DNA of 52,989 nucleotides, taken from an uncultured Pelagibacteraceae bacterium. GTDB taxonomy: Bacteria; Pseudomonadota; Alphaproteobacteria; Pelagibacterales; Pelagibacteraceae. The notes under the pieces were generated by a model. It saw only the letters and a list, made by a program, of their open reading frames with translations, was not told where the DNA came from and made no database searches. Both the position numbers and the translations under genes were made by a program. Location of the stretch: positions 97,543-150,531 of the forward strand of contig CACNRP010000001.1 in assembly GCA_902622955.1 (NCBI GenBank), written 5' to 3'. Below are positions 46,795 through 52,989 of this stretch, in pieces. The stretch's first letter is position 1, and each line of letters opens with the position of its first letter.

Positions 46795-47868
46795 TCATAA
46801 AGATAATATAACTTTGGAAAATTTAAATTCTTTGTTATACATCGATTTAAATAATTTTGGTGCATCAGAAAATTTAAAATTGTGTGAAATTAAATTTTTA
46901 ATTTCAAGTTTTTTACTTTTCATCATATAAAGACTTTCTTCCCATTCGTTATGAGGCTCTATGACAGAACTCCAAGATCCTTTTATTTGTATTTCGTGTC
47001 TTATTATTTTATTTAATGTTTCTTTTGAAAGAGTGGAATTTTTGATTTGATTACTTAATAAAATCATTTTCCCTCCTTTTTTTAAGCTTTGAATTCCTCT
47101 ATTTAATAATTCTTCCGAACCTGAACATTCAAAAGCAATTTCAGCTAAGTCTTTATTAGTAAATATATTTATTTTTTCTTCAAAATTACTTTTGCTTGTG
47201 TCAATAGTATTTTCAAAACCTAGATCAGTAAAATTTTTAAATCTATTTTCATTTCTATCAATTCCGATAACATTAGAAATTTTATTTAATTTACACCATG
47301 CTGCTAATAATATCCCAATTGGTCCTAAGCCTAATATTATTACAGTATCAAATTTTCTATCTTGTTTTGCAAGATTGTAACCATGCAATGCTACAGAGGC
47401 AGGTTCAGTAAAAACAGCAATATTATTATCTAAATTTTCAGGAACTTTAACTAAATTCTTTATTGGAGATAAAACATATTCTGCATATCCACCATGACTT
47501 CTAGATCCTAAAAAATCATAATCAGAGCATAAATTGGGAGCTTTGTTAATGCCATAAACCGAATGAGCTCCACCACAACAGTTATCATCTGTACATTTAG
47601 TTATTAATGGATATACGCAGACTTTATCACCTTCTCTTAATCCATCTATCTTTGAGCCAAGTTTATAAATACTACCTAACATTTCATGCCCAGGAACTAT
47701 GGGGTATGAATAAAAGCCAAATAACATTGATCTTACAACATCTGTGCTACAAATTCCTGATTTTAAAATTTTAATTACTGCTTGATCTTTATTTGGATTA
47801 GGAATTTCTATTTCGTCATAAATCCAATCACCTAAATTTTTTAAAATTGCCGCTTTAGCTTTTAACAT
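46795..47868 (-). CDS. Zinc-dependent dehydrogenase, GatD-like (MDR family)
   Basis: A 357-residue medium-chain zinc dehydrogenase. Catalytic zinc ligands are Cys40 (GICSTDVV), His61-Glu62 (PGHEMLG) and the cofactor motif is GLGPIG; the structural-zinc lobe is a variant with CTDDNCCGG and a later Cys. Segments such as YDFLGSRSHGGYAEYV and KGSWSS resemble galactitol-1-phosphate dehydrogenase GatD, suggesting a polyol-phosphate substrate. It is the last gene of a five-gene minus-strand operon and overlaps the nucleotidyltransferase gene by 14 bases. The substrate is an inference; sorbitol- or other polyol dehydrogenases are alternatives. Confidence 0.8.
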   Translation of the reverse strand: MLKAKAAILKNLGDWIYDEIEIPNPNKDQAVIKILKSGICSTDVVRSMLFGFYSYPIVPGHEMLGSIYKLGSKIDGLREGDKVCVYPLITKCTDDNCCGGAHSVYGINKAPNLCSDYDFLGSRSHGGYAEYVLSPIKNLVKVPENLDNNIAVFTEPASVALHGYNLAKQDRKFDTVIILGLGPIGILLAAWCKLNKISNVIGIDRNENRFKNFTDLGFENTIDTSKSNFEEKINIFTNKDLAEIAFECSGSEELLNRGIQSLKKGGKMILLSNQIKNSTLSKETLNKIIRHEIQIKGSWSSVIEPHNEWEESLYMMKSKKLEIKNLISHNFKFSDAPKLFKSMYNKEFKFSKVILSL

Positions 47869-49387
47869 AAAAGTATTTCTCCCAGAAATTATAAACCATT
47901 AAATCTTCAGGTGTTCCAAGACATATATATTGCTGAACTTCAAATGGTACAACACTATAATTTTCTTTTATCAATTCATTAATAGAATTACCAACATAAT
48001 ATTCATTATTAATTTTATTTTTTTTTCTTATCATTTTTTTAAAAGCTTTCATGAATATTTTTTTTGATTTAAAATAAAATATACCTTGAGCAATATGATC
48101 TAAATGTGGAGTTTCGCTGATAGGTGTTTTTTCAGAAATATTTTTTACTTCTCCATTTTCTATTTGACAGTAAGCATACGCATATGGAGTTAATCTTGCA
48201 TCTGGATAATTTTTAAAGGTCCAAATTATCACATCTGGATCAAAAAATTTTATTGTTTCATTTAATTTTTGTTCATCGAATACAACTGCGTAGTCACAAG
48301 AACTAATTAAAATGGGTTTATCTTTTTTGTATTTTTTAAGATATTCGTAGCACGTGGTTGCCATACCAGATGTTTTTTTCTTTAAAACCAACACATCAGA
48401 ATTTTTAATTTGTGATTTTATCTTATCTTTAAATTTATATTTGATATTGTGATCTTCTCTAATAATTACTGCATTTTTAGTTGATAATGGTAATGAGTCT
48501 ATTGTTTTTGTTATCATAAACTTGTTACTTACCTTTACTAAAGGTTTAAAATTTTCGGTGTTTTTTATTTTAAATCTAGATCCCTCACCACAACTTGGTA
48601 TTAAATTTAAAAAATTAAATTTTAATTTCAATTTTTTATTAATATTAAATTTAAAATATTTATACCAAAAATTATATTCTTTAATATAGGAGACAAGTCC
48701 AAATGTGATATGTTTTTTTACGTAAAATAACTCAATTTTTTTATTTTTTTCTAGATACTCATTATAAACTTGGCTTAAAAAATATCTTCCTTTAACTGGA
48801 CTTTGATTTTCAAAAGTTTTTTTTGAAAACTTTATAAATTCATTCCATTTTTTAAAATGATATATTCCTGCTAGTCTTTTTGAATTTTCAATTTTAATTG
48901 ATTTTTCAATTATTTTAGAAATTTTGTTATTTTTGACAATTACTCTCCCTGTATGAGTTTCTGCAGTATTTGTTTGACTATCTTCATCAAAGGCAATTAA
49001 TAATCCATCAGCTCTATTTTCAATTATTTTTTTTTCAAAATCTTTTTTGGAAAAAAAAATATTTATATTGTCTGGATGACAAATTAAAACCGACTCATTT
49101 TTTTTTACATATTCTTTTGCATAATAAACTGTATCTATTACACTTGATGTATCTTTATTAATTGAAACTATTTGTTTCTTAATTTTCAATTTTTTAATAA
49201 TCTTTAGTAAATCAGTCTCAATTAAATCTCTTTGTTTACATAAAAAAATATATTCATAGTCAAATTTAAAATTTTCAACAAAGGTTTCGATCATTGTTTT
49301 ACCTCCAAGATTTACTAATGGTTTGATTGTTGAAAAATTTTCTAAAATTTCTTTATCAGTGCTTGCAATAGGAATGATTATTTTCAC
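47855..49387 (-). CDS. Tandem-duplicated nucleotidyltransferase (two GT-A-like domains)
   Basis: A 510-residue protein made of two related halves, about residues 1-245 and 260-506, each like a sugar-phosphate nucleotidyltransferase. Paired landmarks keep an offset of 259 residues: KPLV at 22 and 281, Met at 32 and 291, a Thr-Ser pair at 80 and 339, and the metal-binding-type Asp at 106 (HPDN) and 365 (SCDY). Each half ends in YNFW-x-KYF, at 238-245 and 499-506. The nucleotide loop GxGxRF is intact only in the second half (CGEGSRF); the first half has ASTDKEI there and may be non-catalytic. It is in an operon with two dehydrogenases and an HxlB-like isomerase. The nucleotide and sugar are unknown. 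Confidence 0.75.
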   Translation of the reverse strand: MKIIIPIASTDKEILENFSTIKPLVNLGGKTMIETFVENFKFDYEYIFLCKQRDLIETDLLKIIKKLKIKKQIVSINKDTSSVIDTVYYAKEYVKKNESVLICHPDNINIFFSKKDFEKKIIENRADGLLIAFDEDSQTNTAETHTGRVIVKNNKISKIIEKSIKIENSKRLAGIYHFKKWNEFIKFSKKTFENQSPVKGRYFLSQVYNEYLEKNKKIELFYVKKHITFGLVSYIKEYNFWYKYFKFNINKKLKLKFNFLNLIPSCGEGSRFKIKNTENFKPLVKVSNKFMITKTIDSLPLSTKNAVIIREDHNIKYKFKDKIKSQIKNSDVLVLKKKTSGMATTCYEYLKKYKKDKPILISSCDYAVVFDEQKLNETIKFFDPDVIIWTFKNYPDARLTPYAYAYCQIENGEVKNISEKTPISETPHLDHIAQGIFYFKSKKIFMKAFKKMIRKKNKINNEYYVGNSINELIKENYSVVPFEVQQYICLGTPEDLMVYNFWEKYFYVKS

Positions 49388-49394
49388 TTTTATT

Positions 49395-49994
49395 TTATTC
49401 TAGATTAGCGTGATTTTTCCATAAATTTATTTTATTTAATTTAAGTTTTTCAATAATTAGAACAGAAACTATGTCTCCGTAGATGTGAAGAACTTGATCA
49501 AATAATGTGCTCATTGGTTGTATCGATTTAGTTTTGCTTGCTGAGTCTGATAAGCTTTCTTTAGTTTTTATACTGGTAACTATTTTTGTTGGAGCTTTTA
49601 GTTCTACAACGTGGTCAGCTATTTTTCTAATCGATGATTTTTTTGAAGAAGTAATATGTAATATTTTACATCCAATACTCTTTGCTTTTTTTGTTATGTG
49701 AAGAGGTATTAAACTTTCTCCTGATCCACTAGCAACGATGAGTAAATCTTTTCTTGTTGCTGGCTTTTCGGTTAAAGATCCAACTAATTCAACTTTAAAA
49801 CCAAGATGAGCTAGTCTCTTTCCAAAGCATTGAAGTGATAAGTTTACACGCCCAATAGCAACTAAAAATATTCTGTTACTTTTTATTATTTGGTTTATCA
49901 AATTTGAGGTTTGTTTTGTTGGGATATTATTTAAAATATTACTGATTTCGTTAACAATTAAACTAGTATTTTTATTATATCTATTTTTTTTCAT
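49395..49994 (-). CDS. SIS-domain sugar-phosphate isomerase, HxlB-like
   Basis: A 199-residue SIS-domain protein close in pattern to 6-phospho-3-hexuloisomerase (PHI/HxlB): phosphate loop SGSGES at residues 89-94, IQPMSTLFDQVLHIY (like the PMGSLFEQ motif), and the conserved tail HANLE. PHI interconverts fructose-6-phosphate and 3-hexulose-6-phosphate, normally in formaldehyde fixation with HxlA. No hxlA lies here, so a role in making an unusual sugar phosphate from fructose-6-phosphate is plausible. The stop of the upstream dehydrogenase shares one base with this start (TAATG). GmhA-like enzymes are the main alternative but lack the HANLE tail. Confidence 0.8.
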   Translation of the reverse strand: MKKNRYNKNTSLIVNEISNILNNIPTKQTSNLINQIIKSNRIFLVAIGRVNLSLQCFGKRLAHLGFKVELVGSLTEKPATRKDLLIVASGSGESLIPLHITKKAKSIGCKILHITSSKKSSIRKIADHVVELKAPTKIVTSIKTKESLSDSASKTKSIQPMSTLFDQVLHIYGDIVSVLIIEKLKLNKINLWKNHANLE

Positions 49995-51019
49995 TAGGTT
50001 GGTTTAAATATTGATTTAATTTCTTTTCCTTGTTTTAATAAATTAATCTTATTTTTAAAATTGTTGAAATTAGAATAAGATGTTATTATTTTTGAGAAGT
50101 CTATTGATTTATTTTTAATAATTTTAAAAGCTTTATTTAAATGTATTTGATTAGATGAAAAAGATCCTGTTATTTTAGCCTCTTTGTAATGAATAAAATT
50201 TGAGTCAATTTTAATTTCTTTATTCTTTTGAGGAATTCCTCCAAATAAGTTTACTGTTCCATTTTTTCCAACTAATTTACAACTTAACTCATGTGCCTTT
50301 AAGCTTGATGTTGCAGAAATGACAGCATCATAGCCCGAATATCCTGTGGGTTTTAATATTTTATTTATTTTTTTATTATTAATTGATAAGTTAAAAAGTT
50401 GGTTTGCACCTAGTGATTTTGCAATCTTTAATCTACTCTTATTCAAATCTATAACAGATATAAACTTTGCTTTCTTCAGTTTAGCCAAGGCAACAAATAA
50501 TAAACCCATATACCCAGCACCAATTATTACTATTGATTTATTTTTTTTAAAATTTGTAATTTCTAAACCATTTATAACACAAGCTAAACTTTCAGACAAA
50601 CTAGCATACTTTAAACTCTTTTTAGCTTTATAAATAACATGTGGAATTTTTTTTAAAAATTTTTTTTTTAATATAAAATAATTTGAAAAACCTCCATCAT
50701 AATTTGAGCCAACTGAGACAGGATTATTACATAAGTTAGAGTAGTTTTTTTGATCTCTACATATTTGGCACTTTTGACAAGGAACTTCTGCGCCAAACAC
50801 AACAAATTTATTTTTATTTATTTGTCCTGAAATTTCATGTCCAAGGATAATAGGATATTTTTTTATTCTCGACCCTTTAAATATAAATTTTATGTCTGAG
50901 CTACAAATCCCACATGATTCTACTTTAACCAACAATTCATCCTTTTTAATCTTAATCCTTTTTTTTTGAACTTTTATTTTTTTAATTCCCTCAAGATATA
51001 TACTTTTTCTAATTATCAA
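49994..51019 (-). CDS. Zinc-dependent dehydrogenase (MDR family, second copy)
   Basis: A 341-residue medium-chain zinc dehydrogenase. It has catalytic Cys39 (GICSSD), His61-Glu62 (GHEISG), a four-cysteine structural-zinc lobe (CQKCQICRDQKNYSNLC) and the cofactor motif IGAGYMG. It resembles polyol dehydrogenases such as sorbitol and threonine dehydrogenase and, by size and company with a nucleotidyltransferase, the ribulose-5-phosphate reductase TarJ. It overlaps the epimerase gene by 11 bases at its start. It is not a close duplicate of the gene at 46795, since motifs differ in the structural-zinc region. Confidence 0.8.
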   Translation of the reverse strand: MIIRKSIYLEGIKKIKVQKKRIKIKKDELLVKVESCGICSSDIKFIFKGSRIKKYPIILGHEISGQINKNKFVVFGAEVPCQKCQICRDQKNYSNLCNNPVSVGSNYDGGFSNYFILKKKFLKKIPHVIYKAKKSLKYASLSESLACVINGLEITNFKKNKSIVIIGAGYMGLLFVALAKLKKAKFISVIDLNKSRLKIAKSLGANQLFNLSINNKKINKILKPTGYSGYDAVISATSSLKAHELSCKLVGKNGTVNLFGGIPQKNKEIKIDSNFIHYKEAKITGSFSSNQIHLNKAFKIIKNKSIDFSKIITSYSNFNNFKNKINLLKQGKEIKSIFKPT

Positions 51020-51905
51020 GATATTTCCTCCAGTATTTGACCGACTCTCTTATGTGTTTTATAGAACTTGAGTCAAATGGTTCTCTTTCTCTAAAGGAAA
51101 ATTCAAAATACAAAGTCACCTCTTTTATCCCAGTTTTTGAAATTTCATTTATTATTTTATCGGGTTTTATAAGTCCAATCTTATTATATTTTTTTATAAA
51201 AGGCTTATGAGAATAAATATCCTTTGTTTTTTGTTTCAGATGTATTGCTGGGCTATATTTTCCTAAAGATTTAATTATTTTATAAGGATTATAATCATCT
51301 TTATTTTTAGATTTTAAATCTCCATGATCAACGTCTAGGTTTAGTAGAATAGGTATATAAGATTTTTTGTTTAATTCATTATGTAGAGATTTTGTAGCTT
51401 TTATTGTTTCACCCATTTCTCTTTTTACTGACATTGGTTCCCAAATTAAATATTTTAAACCACAGGTTTTGGCATATTTTGAAATATCTACCCACCCCTC
51501 AATAACTCTTTTTCTGGTTTTTTGATAATTATTTTCTAAATCATCAAAGCTAAAAATCCCTAAAAGACTGCCTGCTCCTTCTGCACCTAATTCAGATGAT
51601 ATTTTTATAAAATTTTTTAACCAATTTTTCCAATAGTTACTTATATTGGGATTGCTATGACCCATGTAATTATATCTTGGTAATGTCATCGCATGCTTGA
51701 TATTAATCTTATATTTTTTTGTATAAAATTTTATTTTCTTTATTTCATTTTTAATTATTTTTTTTGGCAAGCTTGGTTGTATTAAATCTGAAACAAATTG
51801 AACATGATCTAAATCTAACTCGTTTTTTACAATATTTGTCCATATTTTTGGTTCATAAAACCTTGTCGATGCAAAGCCAAGATGTAGACCCAGATTAATT
51901 TTCAT
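51009..51905 (-). CDS. TIM-barrel sugar isomerase/epimerase (xylose isomerase-like)
   Basis: A 298-residue protein of the xylose isomerase-like/AP endonuclease 2 TIM-barrel superfamily. A metal site is visible as Glu156 (IWEPMS), Asp191 or Asp193 with His194 (NLDVDHGD), His222 (AIHLKQ) and Glu268 (YFEFSF), the layout of D-tagatose 3-epimerase-type enzymes. No signal peptide. It is the first gene of the minus-strand operon, with its promoter presumably in the 71 bases shared with the divergent GDPD-like gene. The sugar substrate is unknown; ketose or ketose-phosphate epimerisation is likely from family. Confidence 0.75.
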   Translation of the reverse strand: MKINLGLHLGFASTRFYEPKIWTNIVKNELDLDHVQFVSDLIQPSLPKKIIKNEIKKIKFYTKKYKINIKHAMTLPRYNYMGHSNPNISNYWKNWLKNFIKISSELGAEGAGSLLGIFSFDDLENNYQKTRKRVIEGWVDISKYAKTCGLKYLIWEPMSVKREMGETIKATKSLHNELNKKSYIPILLNLDVDHGDLKSKNKDDYNPYKIIKSLGKYSPAIHLKQKTKDIYSHKPFIKKYNKIGLIKPDKIINEISKTGIKEVTLYFEFSFREREPFDSSSIKHIRESVKYWRKYLDN

Positions 51906-51976
51906 TGTTTTTTATATTATGTTAATTTGAGTTAATTAAAATATATAATACTATTTTAAAAAATAACAAAATAATA

Positions 51977-52564
51977 ATGCAACTAATTAGTCATAGAGTA
52001 AATAAGGTAGAAGACTTAAAAAAATTAGATCAAAAATATGGAGTTGAAATTGATATTCGTGACATTGGAAAAAAATTAGTTGTAGTTCACGATCCTTTTA
52101 AAAAAGGAATTAATCTTGATACTTATTTAAAGAATTACAAACATAAAATTTTAATAGCGAATATAAAATCTGAAAGAATTGAAGATGCTGTTTTAAAAAA
52201 ATTTAAAAAAAAAAAAATCAAAAATTTTTTTTTTCTAGATACTTCTTTTCCAAAAATTATAGATTTAATTAACAAAAAAATATCAAATATTGCTTTAAGA
52301 GTTTCCTATTTTGAAGATGTATCAACAGCAAGAAAGCTGAAAAATAAGGTAAAATGGATATGGTATGATACTTTTTTTGGTTTACCAAAAAATATAGATG
52401 ATTTCACATATTTAAAAAAATTGAATTATAAGATTTGTCTTGTATGTCCAAAACTTCATAATTTAAAAATAGATACAAAATCTAAAGTCTTCATTAAAAT
52501 TAAAAAAGGTAATTTGATTGATGCAGTATGCACTAAAAAAAAATACTTCAAGTTATGGTCTTAA
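51977..52564 (+). CDS. Glycerophosphodiester phosphodiesterase-like protein, short
   Basis: A 195-residue protein resembling the GDPD TIM-barrel. His6-Arg7 (LISHRVN), Glu24 and Asp26 (VEIDIRD) and His38-Asp39 (VVVHDPF) occupy the positions of the catalytic HR, ExD and HD set. Typical GDPDs have about 240-300 residues; the barrel is shortened, and later strands (KWIWYDTFFGLP, KICLVCPK) are only loosely recognisable. A 13-A run at 52205 lies in the coding sequence. It is divergent from the operon at 51905 and overlaps the end of the glycosyltransferase by four bases. Activity is uncertain; it may act on a glycan or polyol-phosphate diester. Confidence 0.55.
   Translation: MQLISHRVNKVEDLKKLDQKYGVEIDIRDIGKKLVVVHDPFKKGINLDTYLKNYKHKILIANIKSERIEDAVLKKFKKKKIKNFFFLDTSFPKIIDLINKKISNIALRVSYFEDVSTARKLKNKVKWIWYDTFFGLPKNIDDFTYLKKLNYKICLVCPKLHNLKIDTKSKVFIKIKKGNLIDAVCTKKKYFKLWS
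52205..52217. repeat. 13-base poly-A run, followed by a 10-base poly-T run
   Basis: Thirteen A at 52205-52217 and ten T at 52225-52234 fall inside the GDPD-like gene, encoding Lys and Phe repeats. They could slip or base-pair as a small hairpin. The frame stays open. Confidence 0.85.
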
Positions 52565-52989
52565 TTTAATTTAATTAAAATTATTAAAGAGTAATATAAT
52601 TGTTCTAAACTTGCTTTCACTTTTTTTATAATACTATCACTGCTACCTTCGCCAAATTTTCTCTTTTTTTTGTTAAAATTTACTGGAAAACGAATTAATT
52701 TATATTTTCTCTTAACTGCATGAAGATAAATAGCTAAATCAATAGAAAAATCGTTTGGGTAATATTTTAATTCTTTTATTAAATTTCTTGAAAACAAAAC
52801 GGGCTGTGCGTGTATATCAAATAAATATTTTCTAAAAATTATCGTCGATAAAACTGTCAAACCGTAAGAGAATATTAAATCATCTAATGACCAATGATTC
52901 TTTAATTTATTAATTCTATTACCTTTTATAAATATTTTTTTAATTGAGTTGCTTTTTATTTTTTTTAAGATTTTAATTGATTTCAGAAT
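52561..52989 (-). CDS. Family 2 glycosyltransferase, C-terminal part (cut by window edge)
   Basis: An open minus-strand frame runs from the TAA at 52561 to the end of the window, giving 142 residues of a larger protein whose N-terminus lies outside. The segment DIHAQPVLFSRNLIKEL, followed by LAIYLHAVKRKYKLIRFPVNF and KFGEGSS, resembles dolichyl-phosphate-mannose-synthase-like GT2 enzymes, which transfer a sugar from a nucleotide or to a lipid carrier at the inner membrane. The internal start ATG-like TTG near 52860 is not a real start, since the coding pattern continues upstream. Membership in the same glycan island as the genes at 46795-51905 is likely. Confidence 0.7.
   Translation of the reverse strand: MLKSIKILKKIKSNSIKKIFIKGNRINKLKNHWSLDDLIFSYGLTVLSTIIFRKYLFDIHAQPVLFSRNLIKELKYYPNDFSIDLAIYLHAVKRKYKLIRFPVNFNKKKRKFGEGSSDSIIKKVKASLEQLYYSLIILIKLN

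Follow-up and report, generated by a model that had tools for sequence, protein, structure and literature searches.

The DNA analyzed here (the window) is a stretch of 52,989 nucleotides from an uncultured Pelagibacteraceae bacterium (assembly GCA_902622955.1, contig CACNRP010000001.1), and it carries, near the end of its 150,531-base contig, a compact five-gene operon on the minus strand (46795-51905). The operon encodes a barrel protein related to EryC (TIM), a zinc dehydrogenase (DHB), a protein of the SIS family (SIS), a tandem nucleotidyltransferase (NT) and a second zinc dehydrogenase (DHA), the order given in a preliminary description of this DNA (Table 1). The tight spacing reported there is borne out by the coordinates of the open reading frames (ORFs): three junctions overlap, by 11, 1 and 14 bases, and the fourth is a 7-base gap. 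The gene families agree as well: ADH_N/ADH_zinc_N twice, SIS, a barrel of the AP_endonuc_2 type, and nucleotidyltransferase folds in both halves of the NT. The description had also placed a GT2 glycosyltransferase gene at the edge. This gene is present as a C-terminal fragment, since the window ends where the contig ends, and between it and the operon lies a gene that had gone unmentioned, encoding a compact GDPD-like protein. The genome assembly comprises 855,832 bases and is 67% complete, so absences from it are weak evidence.

Table 1. The five-gene operon and adjoining features of the window, with predicted functions.
Feature	Coordinates	Strand	Length	Remarks
TIM, EryC-like metal-dependent ketose-phosphate epimerase/racemase	51009..51905	-	298 aa	
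DHB, zinc-dependent polyol(-phosphate) dehydrogenase	49994..51019	-	341 aa	TTG start
SIS, HxlB-like sugar-phosphate isomerase	49395..49994	-	199 aa	
NT, tandem nucleotidyltransferase	47855..49387	-	510 aa	GTG start
DHA, GatD-like zinc dehydrogenase	46795..47868	-	357 aa	
Compact GDPD-like TIM barrel	51977..52564	+	195 aa	divergent from operon
GT2 glycosyltransferase	52561..52989	-		C-terminal fragment, cut by contig end
Intergenic region, GDPD-like gene to operon	51906..51976		71 bases	divergent; 44 bases at the L057 equivalent

We scanned a collection of 84,980 species with an alignment of three TIM proteins and obtained 20 loci; the scan used two short peptide patterns, and relatives may be missed. 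The NT gene lies beside the TIM gene in seven of these loci, and in the other 13 the TIM gene is found in different settings. One of the seven, from a second Pelagibacteraceae genome (L057), carries all five genes in an unchanged arrangement, with proteins 60-73% identical to those of the window: a divergent GDPD-like gene (62%), TIM (73%), DHB (60%), SIS (72%), NT (64%) and DHA (68%), followed by a GT2 gene. The ratio of nonsynonymous to synonymous substitution rates (dN/dS) between the two is 0.08-0.26, rough values given that dS is near saturation. The same genes in the same order in L057, together with this purifying selection, mean that the operon is not a chance assembly, and the co-occurrence of the five families outside this genome, on which the preliminary description had staked its proposal, is found, in the exact form once more.

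A sister form is present at the remaining six loci (L058, L060, L064, L065, L066 and L067), where a ribulose-phosphate-epimerase-like (RPE-like) gene occurs and no SIS gene is in view. The order is DHB-RPE-TIM-NT-DHA in L064, L065 and L067, the NT being split into two ORFs in the latter two, and DHB-RPE-TIM-NT-GDPD-GT2 in L066. Over the seven loci the NT gene is found in 7/7, GT2 in 6/7 and the GDPD-like gene in 5/7; the genome of L067 has GT2 and GDPD-like genes on another contig, and L060, a 6-kb contig labelled Micrarchaeota, may be misbinned. Against the model for ribulose-phosphate 3-epimerase (cut-off 212.6) the RPE-like protein of L064 reaches 178 bits, and against that for D-allulose-6-phosphate 3-epimerase (AlsE; cut-off 271) 172; it passes one general ribulose-phosphate epimerase subfamily cut-off (166.9 versus 165). 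Among 297 genomes of the order, TIM matches occur in five, of which three are strong and all three lie beside an NT gene, and SIS matches in three, the window's own being strong and the other two at E about 1e-4. When 367 genomes of the class were searched for TIM with a strict threshold (E 1e-30), the window's own protein was the sole match, a result that adds only to the rarity of the family. The TIM protein had no phage match, and its alignment found no relative in viral contigs.

The SIS protein is close to HxlB. It scores 153.8 bits against the NCBIfam model TIGR03127 (HxlB) in the window and likewise in L057, where its counterpart is 72-73% identical, as compared with 19.6 bits against the KpsF/GutQ arabinose-5-phosphate model. 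Among PDB entries it matches 1m3s (E 9.6e-26). Five relatives have solved structures: two are entries for YckF, and the others are AF1796, MJ1247 and a chain that bears the name 3-hexulose-6-phosphate synthase. The preliminary description had called this protein an HxlB-like isomerase, which holds for its family; the score lies below the HxlB cut-off, and a residue typical of HxlB relatives is replaced, points that are taken up below. HxlA is the partner of HxlB in formaldehyde fixation, and its best score in this genome is 34.7 bits for a cut-off of 200; in a control, 12 of 14 named genomes gave an HxlA match and two passed the cut-off. Formaldehyde fixation by the ribulose monophosphate pathway is therefore unsupported in this 67% complete genome: the likeness to HxlA-HxlB consists in a SIS protein near HxlB, whereas SIS falls just below its cut-off and HxlA below its own. 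In the plasmid collection 355 records contain HxlB-type SIS relatives, all less than 60% identical to the SIS protein of the window, and the SIS alignment found no relative in viral contigs.

For the TIM protein, a barrel scoring 29.1 bits against AP_endonuc_2, slightly below the Pfam cut-off of 31.1, the earlier call of an epimerase can be refined: it is closest to EryC, a kinship that had been missed. The TIM-family profile (A1) matches PDB entry 4k3z, named D-erythrulose 4-phosphate dehydrogenase, with an E value of 1.7e-83, and we take this entry to be EryC of Brucella. EryC is described as a tetrulose-4-phosphate racemase in the parts of two reports on which we draw (PMC11508834, PMC5992420). 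The metal-site residues E156, D191, H194, H222 and E268 are kept in all 21 aligned TIM sequences, including that of the window, so that the protein agrees with EryC both in sequence kinship and in its metal site. A further three residues (K224, E273 and R274) are common to 15 of the 21 sequences and differ in six remoter ones, and all eight are shared with three plasmid proteins from clusters of the ery type. In the phylogeny, the window protein does not group with these three: window and L057 form their own clade (100/100), the plasmid proteins form a separate one (100/100), and the branching order between the groups is unsettled. The three plasmid genes inspected adjoin kinase, glycerol-3-phosphate-dehydrogenase-like, TpiA-like and RpiB-like genes. 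The erythritol breakdown cluster eryABC-HI, as far as it is covered in the same parts of those reports (PMC11508834, PMC5992420), resembles the operon in having an EryC-family barrel by a polyol-phosphate dehydrogenase, but it is catabolic and includes an FGGY kinase, regulators, TpiA2 and RpiB. No nucleotidyltransferase was found in the ery-type stretches inspected. As a separate observation, TIM/EryC-like proteins of three bacteria (L061, L062 and L063, one a Candidatus Hydrogenedens) are encoded beside a gene that by eye appears to be a phosphoribosyltransferase, with no NT gene in these stretches.

The NT consists of two nucleotidyltransferase domains. Its C-terminal half retains the G-x-G-x-R signature; in the N-terminal half the signature arginine is gone in the window and in L057, and the six RPE-type clusters retain it in their first domain. 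The structure predicted for the NT (predicted local distance difference test, pLDDT, 82) matches 4evw best over the C-terminal half (Z 25.6, root-mean-square deviation, rmsd, 2.1 over 224 residues), and the nearest structures further include GlmU types, RmlA types and inositol-1-phosphate cytidylyltransferase 4jd0 (Z 22.2), which use various nucleotides. Since GlmU, RmlA, UDP-glucose and CTP-using folds score close together, we abandoned the choice of a nucleotide from structure. A Pfam scan at E up to 0.01 gave only PF12804 and PF02348, both below cut-off, and no PF01128. As a lone query, the window NT found no relative in the large genome collection and none in viral contigs. TarI/TarJ makes CDP-ribitol with a nucleotidyltransferase and a zinc-type dehydrogenase, and the preliminary description had likened the operon to this pair. 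The pairing itself is present here, but the comparison is weakened by the missing PF01128 match, by the lost arginine, by the nearest structures and by the ribitol-5-phosphate cytidylyltransferase 4jis, which the NT profile matches only at E 5e-4; moreover, the operon adds a second dehydrogenase, an isomerase and a racemase-like protein.

Both dehydrogenases belong to PF08240/PF00107. The best NCBIfam model for each is GatD (galactitol-1-phosphate 5-dehydrogenase), with 161.9 bits for DHA and 127.6 for DHB, both far below the curated cut-off of 550. The best solved relative of the DHA family (profile A4) is GatD itself (4a2c, E 7.5e-58), and that of DHB is 4ej6 (E 1.2e-32). The likeness to GatD, formerly claimed for one dehydrogenase, thus suits DHA, which is the nearer of the two, and extends to DHB.

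The GDPD-like protein, divergent from the operon in the window and in L057 alike, has no Pfam or NCBIfam match at E up to 0.01, and hence no match to a curated GDPD model. Its predicted structure (pLDDT 92) has the GDPD/PI-PLC fold: it aligns with the Pyrococcus furiosus GDPD 7e0v (Z 17.6, rmsd 2.6 over 190 residues), and the top seven structure matches are all GDPDs. The catalytic motif of GDPDs comprises His-Arg, Glu-x-Asp and a further His. The corresponding residues H6, R7, E24, D26 and H38 are invariant in six of six GDPD-like sequences, and in a second set of seven sequences R7 is replaced by Lys in L040. The adjacent GT2 fragment has no Pfam match and is 39% identical to a portion of the L057 protein, which itself matches PF00535.

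The GDPD-like and NT genes tend to be found together. In the plasmid collection 24 records contain the GDPD-like protein (query from L033) and 20 the NT (window query), 18 being on both lists. Within the order, the GDPD-like gene is present in 13 of 297 genomes; 12 of these are among the 30 with an NT gene, and in ten both genes lie inside 4 kb. No phage match was obtained for the long GDPD-like protein. A GDPD-like protein of very small size (seed 145 aa) accompanies an NT relative in 62 of the best 80 of 548 viral loci (L097-L176), always on the same strand and in 35 of the 62 cases at most 20 bases apart. Among the other cluster enzymes used as queries, DHA alone had a match in these 80 loci, a weak one in L102 (S-SM2) obtained only with the low-complexity filter off. 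The short protein also occurs in 13 of 29 Pelagibacterales NT loci (L006-L011, L013, L014, L017-L020 and L023), with one short fused match in addition. Two cyanophages, S-SM2 (L035) and Bellamy (L036), encode tandem NT relatives of full length within sugar islands that also contain genes for an aldolase and a kinase, and the S-SM2 island is also annotated with transketolase, zinc-dehydrogenase and phosphoheptose-isomerase genes. The widespread pairing of NT and compact GDPD-like protein, many viral contigs included, is a testable puzzle in itself.

The genes adjacent to this core vary. In Azospirillum, an E. coli IncR plasmid and Hirschia, NT relatives adjoin GtrA, GT2, a homologous GDPD-like protein, a kinase, a HAD protein and a class II aldolase; compared with the window, the tandem NT, GDPD-like protein and GT2 are homologous, whereas aldolase, kinase and HAD stand where the operon has TIM, two dehydrogenases and SIS. 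Three Pelagibacterales loci have the NT and GDPD-like genes beside a GatZ/KbaZ-like protein (identified by Pfam in L044, by BLAST in L045 and L051), accompanied by a kinase. Transketolase, FGGY kinase and HAD genes lie beside the core in L040, and an RPE-like domain and class II aldolase with a single-domain NT in L046 (Pfam) and L049 (BLAST and by eye). Further glycan-type neighbours of the core elsewhere are GT2, GtrA, WavE and FkbM. The exchange can be followed within one genus, in genomes G180 and G257, where the left flank (the nadA/nadC side) is 82-90% identical at the DNA level and the right flank 80% identical over 6.1 kb, while the module between these matching flanks is GatZ-like plus kinase in one and DHB-RPE-TIM-NT-DHA in the other; G257 is split over two contigs at the module, and we infer a single site from both flanks. 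GMC-type oxidoreductase genes were also noticed near the core at L041:7538-9010, L057:15862-17310 and L087:13880-15370; the L041 and L057 proteins are 30% identical, and that of L087, annotated as such, matches L041 over a short stretch only.

Because the NT often travels with the GDPD-like protein and GT2 while the adjacent sugar-phosphate enzymes differ, the unit is most likely an exchangeable biosynthetic cassette. A wider interpretation, which we advance tentatively and consider somewhat doubtful, is that such glycan cassettes form a modular family. Its constant core (NT, compact GDPD-like barrel and usually GT2) would be combined with exchangeable enzymes that reshape sugar phosphates, the GDPD-like protein performing an undescribed step on a nucleotide- or phosphodiester-linked sugar alcohol. 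The module sets, proposed just as tentatively, would be an EryC-like protein and two dehydrogenases joined by either SIS or an RPE-like protein; a GatZ-like protein paired with a kinase; transketolase together with FGGY kinase and HAD; and a class II aldolase alongside an RPE-like protein. If this is true, exchanging one module for another would alter a residue at the cell surface, which is what phage pressure would favour. None of this modular context, nor the GDPD-like partner, the EryC kinship and the exchange of SIS for RPE-like, was part of the preliminary description.

We consider it highly probable that the unit is a cassette for the biosynthesis of a building block of surface glycans. 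The surface-glycan setting proposed in the preliminary description agrees with the NT, the GT2 and the lack of a kinase, transporter or regulator inside the five-gene unit, while conservation in the exact form extends to just one further genome. More specifically, with about an even chance of being correct, the operon would convert a central sugar phosphate, most likely fructose-6-phosphate, to a nucleotide-activated rare ketose or sugar alcohol with the phosphate on a primary carbon. The analysis establishes gene order, conservation, protein families, the predicted folds of the NT and the GDPD-like protein, metal-site residues and the SIS-to-RPE-like exchange; all substrates, the choice of nucleotide, the sequence of reactions, the end product and any reaction of the GDPD-like protein are inferred. 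HxlB moves the keto group of fructose-6-phosphate, and AlsE-type enzymes invert C3. The GatZ/KbaZ family includes fructose-6-phosphate 4-epimerase activity, which inverts C4, according to the part of the report used here (PMC11907403). As the exchangeable modules carry enzymes of the HxlB, AlsE and GatZ types, fructose-6-phosphate is suggested as their common start. In the proposed route, the SIS protein would shift the keto group of fructose-6-phosphate to give a 3-hexulose-6-phosphate, the EryC-like barrel would invert a carbon adjoining the keto group, and the two zinc dehydrogenases may reduce and re-oxidize the intermediate, resetting a stereocentre and yielding an alditol phosphate or a new ketose phosphate. 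The C-terminal half of the tandem NT would then activate the phosphate product, with GT2 and the GDPD-like protein acting downstream. Activation could come before or after reduction, given the order in Campylobacter jejuni, where fructose-6-phosphate is first activated and reduced afterwards, as stated in the part of that report consulted (PMC10918830).

The systems closest to this route, as described in the same part of that report, are those for CDP-6-D-glucitol and CDP-mannitol, HS5.18/HS5.17 of C. jejuni and Mnp1/Mnp2 of Streptococcus pneumoniae, which start from fructose-6-phosphate and use two genes, for a PF01128 cytidylyltransferase and an SDR (PF01370) reductase (PMC10918830). They are alike in the use of a nucleotidyltransferase and a reductase on a ketose phosphate for surface polysaccharide, and they differ from the operon, which has a tandem NT of GlmU/RmlA fold, two zinc dehydrogenases, neither of them an SDR protein, and additional SIS and EryC-like enzymes. 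We found no described pathway with this gene set, in agreement with the preliminary description, in literal-term searches that covered titles and the starts of abstracts among the papers listed and that miss papers.

Several observations weigh against the route from fructose-6-phosphate. The SIS protein misses the curated HxlB cut-off of 160, and in the window and L057 an Asp replaces the Glu of HxlB relatives in the QPM-LFE stretch; SIS occurs at one of the 20 TIM loci and is strongly matched in one of the 297 genomes of the order, and the SIS form is known from two genomes only. Among the sister loci, no DHA gene was found in L066, L058 and L060 are cut by contig ends with DHB out of view, and neither the 11.7 kb examined of L058 nor the contig stretch of L067 yielded a GDPD-like gene. 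The usual donors of GT2 enzymes are sugars with an activated anomeric carbon, and none of the five enzymes obviously makes such a sugar. The known CDP-hexitol routes rely on a PF01128 or SDR enzyme, which the operon lacks. The substrates are all putative, and pentulose phosphates would suit the RPE-like protein equally well, in which case the sister products would be pentitols. On the other side stand the exact unit with GDPD-like and GT2 genes in L057, the sister units, the EryC kinship, the glycan-type neighbours and the low HxlA score.

The possible pentitols lead to an alternative that we regard as unlikely yet worth keeping in view, namely that the product is a nucleotide-activated tetritol or pentitol, or the matching ketose, with SIS and RPE-like acting on shorter sugar phosphates. 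It is in line with the four-carbon ketose phosphate used by the nearest characterized relative of the EryC-like protein, with the slightly better ribulose-5-phosphate than allulose-6-phosphate epimerase score of the sister RPE-like protein and with the general subfamily cut-off that this protein passes; on the other hand, SIS is far nearer to hexulose-6-phosphate isomerase than to the KpsF/GutQ type by their own models, and the GatZ-type modules on the same core likewise point to hexoses. We think it improbable that the product is a conventional anomeric nucleoside diphosphate sugar, the phosphate being moved or a 1-phosphate being supplied from outside the operon, and that GT2 passes the sugar to a lipid carrier. 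The GlmU/RmlA fold group, to which the NT belongs, mostly activates aldose-1-phosphates, and GT2, elsewhere with GtrA, suggests a polyprenyl-phosphate sugar, but the unit is without a mutase, a kinase or an obvious aldose-forming enzyme, and the inositol-1-phosphate cytidylyltransferase fits nearly as well, so that the fold is indecisive.

A catabolic polyol operon has very little in its favour by our estimate. Relatives of GatD, EryC and HxlB are mostly catabolic, the three plasmid TIM relatives lie in surroundings like those for erythritol or related polyols, and EamA and MFS transporter genes are found near the operon on the other strand. We rejected this explanation because kinase, transporter and regulator are absent from the unit; EamA and MFS genes are also present in relatives without the operon, and it is the NT, with GT2 and the GDPD-like gene in most cases, that stays with the unit across the seven clusters. 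That the genes are chance neighbours without shared function is scarcely credible: the occurrence of the SIS form in two genomes only would fit, but L057 shows the same order, overlapping ends and purifying selection, and L064 to L067 (L064, L065, L066, L067) a related order.

SAR11-type bacteria are among the commonest cells in the sea. If a glycan cassette fed from fructose-6-phosphate is the right explanation, they would own an exchangeable means of making rare sugars or sugar alcohols in activated form, one that our searches did not find described. Enzymes of the EryC and HxlB types, known from breakdown pathways, would then be joined to glycan building, and six defined proteins would be available for production and assay.

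The surroundings to the left of the operon look ordinary. Twenty left-hand ORFs scanned against Pfam are of common chromosomal types (DnaB, RNase E/G, LptF/G, glutathione synthesis, EamA, MFS), one of the 20 having no Pfam match. The EamA and MFS genes lie about 0.6 kb and more from the operon. Three relatives share the MFS gene (79-95% identical) and differ in the genes that follow it, so that the operon occupies a variable place. In one of them, genome G184 (L091:8382-16097), the genes after the MFS gene appear from their protein starts, by eye, to encode a DNA methyltransferase and restriction or defence proteins, which suggests a hot spot for variable genes. Finally, a convergent 2H/cyclic-phosphodiesterase-like gene (PF07823, 46284-46793) ends one base from the operon end and has a 39% identical counterpart in L049, at a distance of about 9 kb from NT; a GDPD with cyclic-phosphate chemistry next to it would be of interest, the link here being one of proximity alone.

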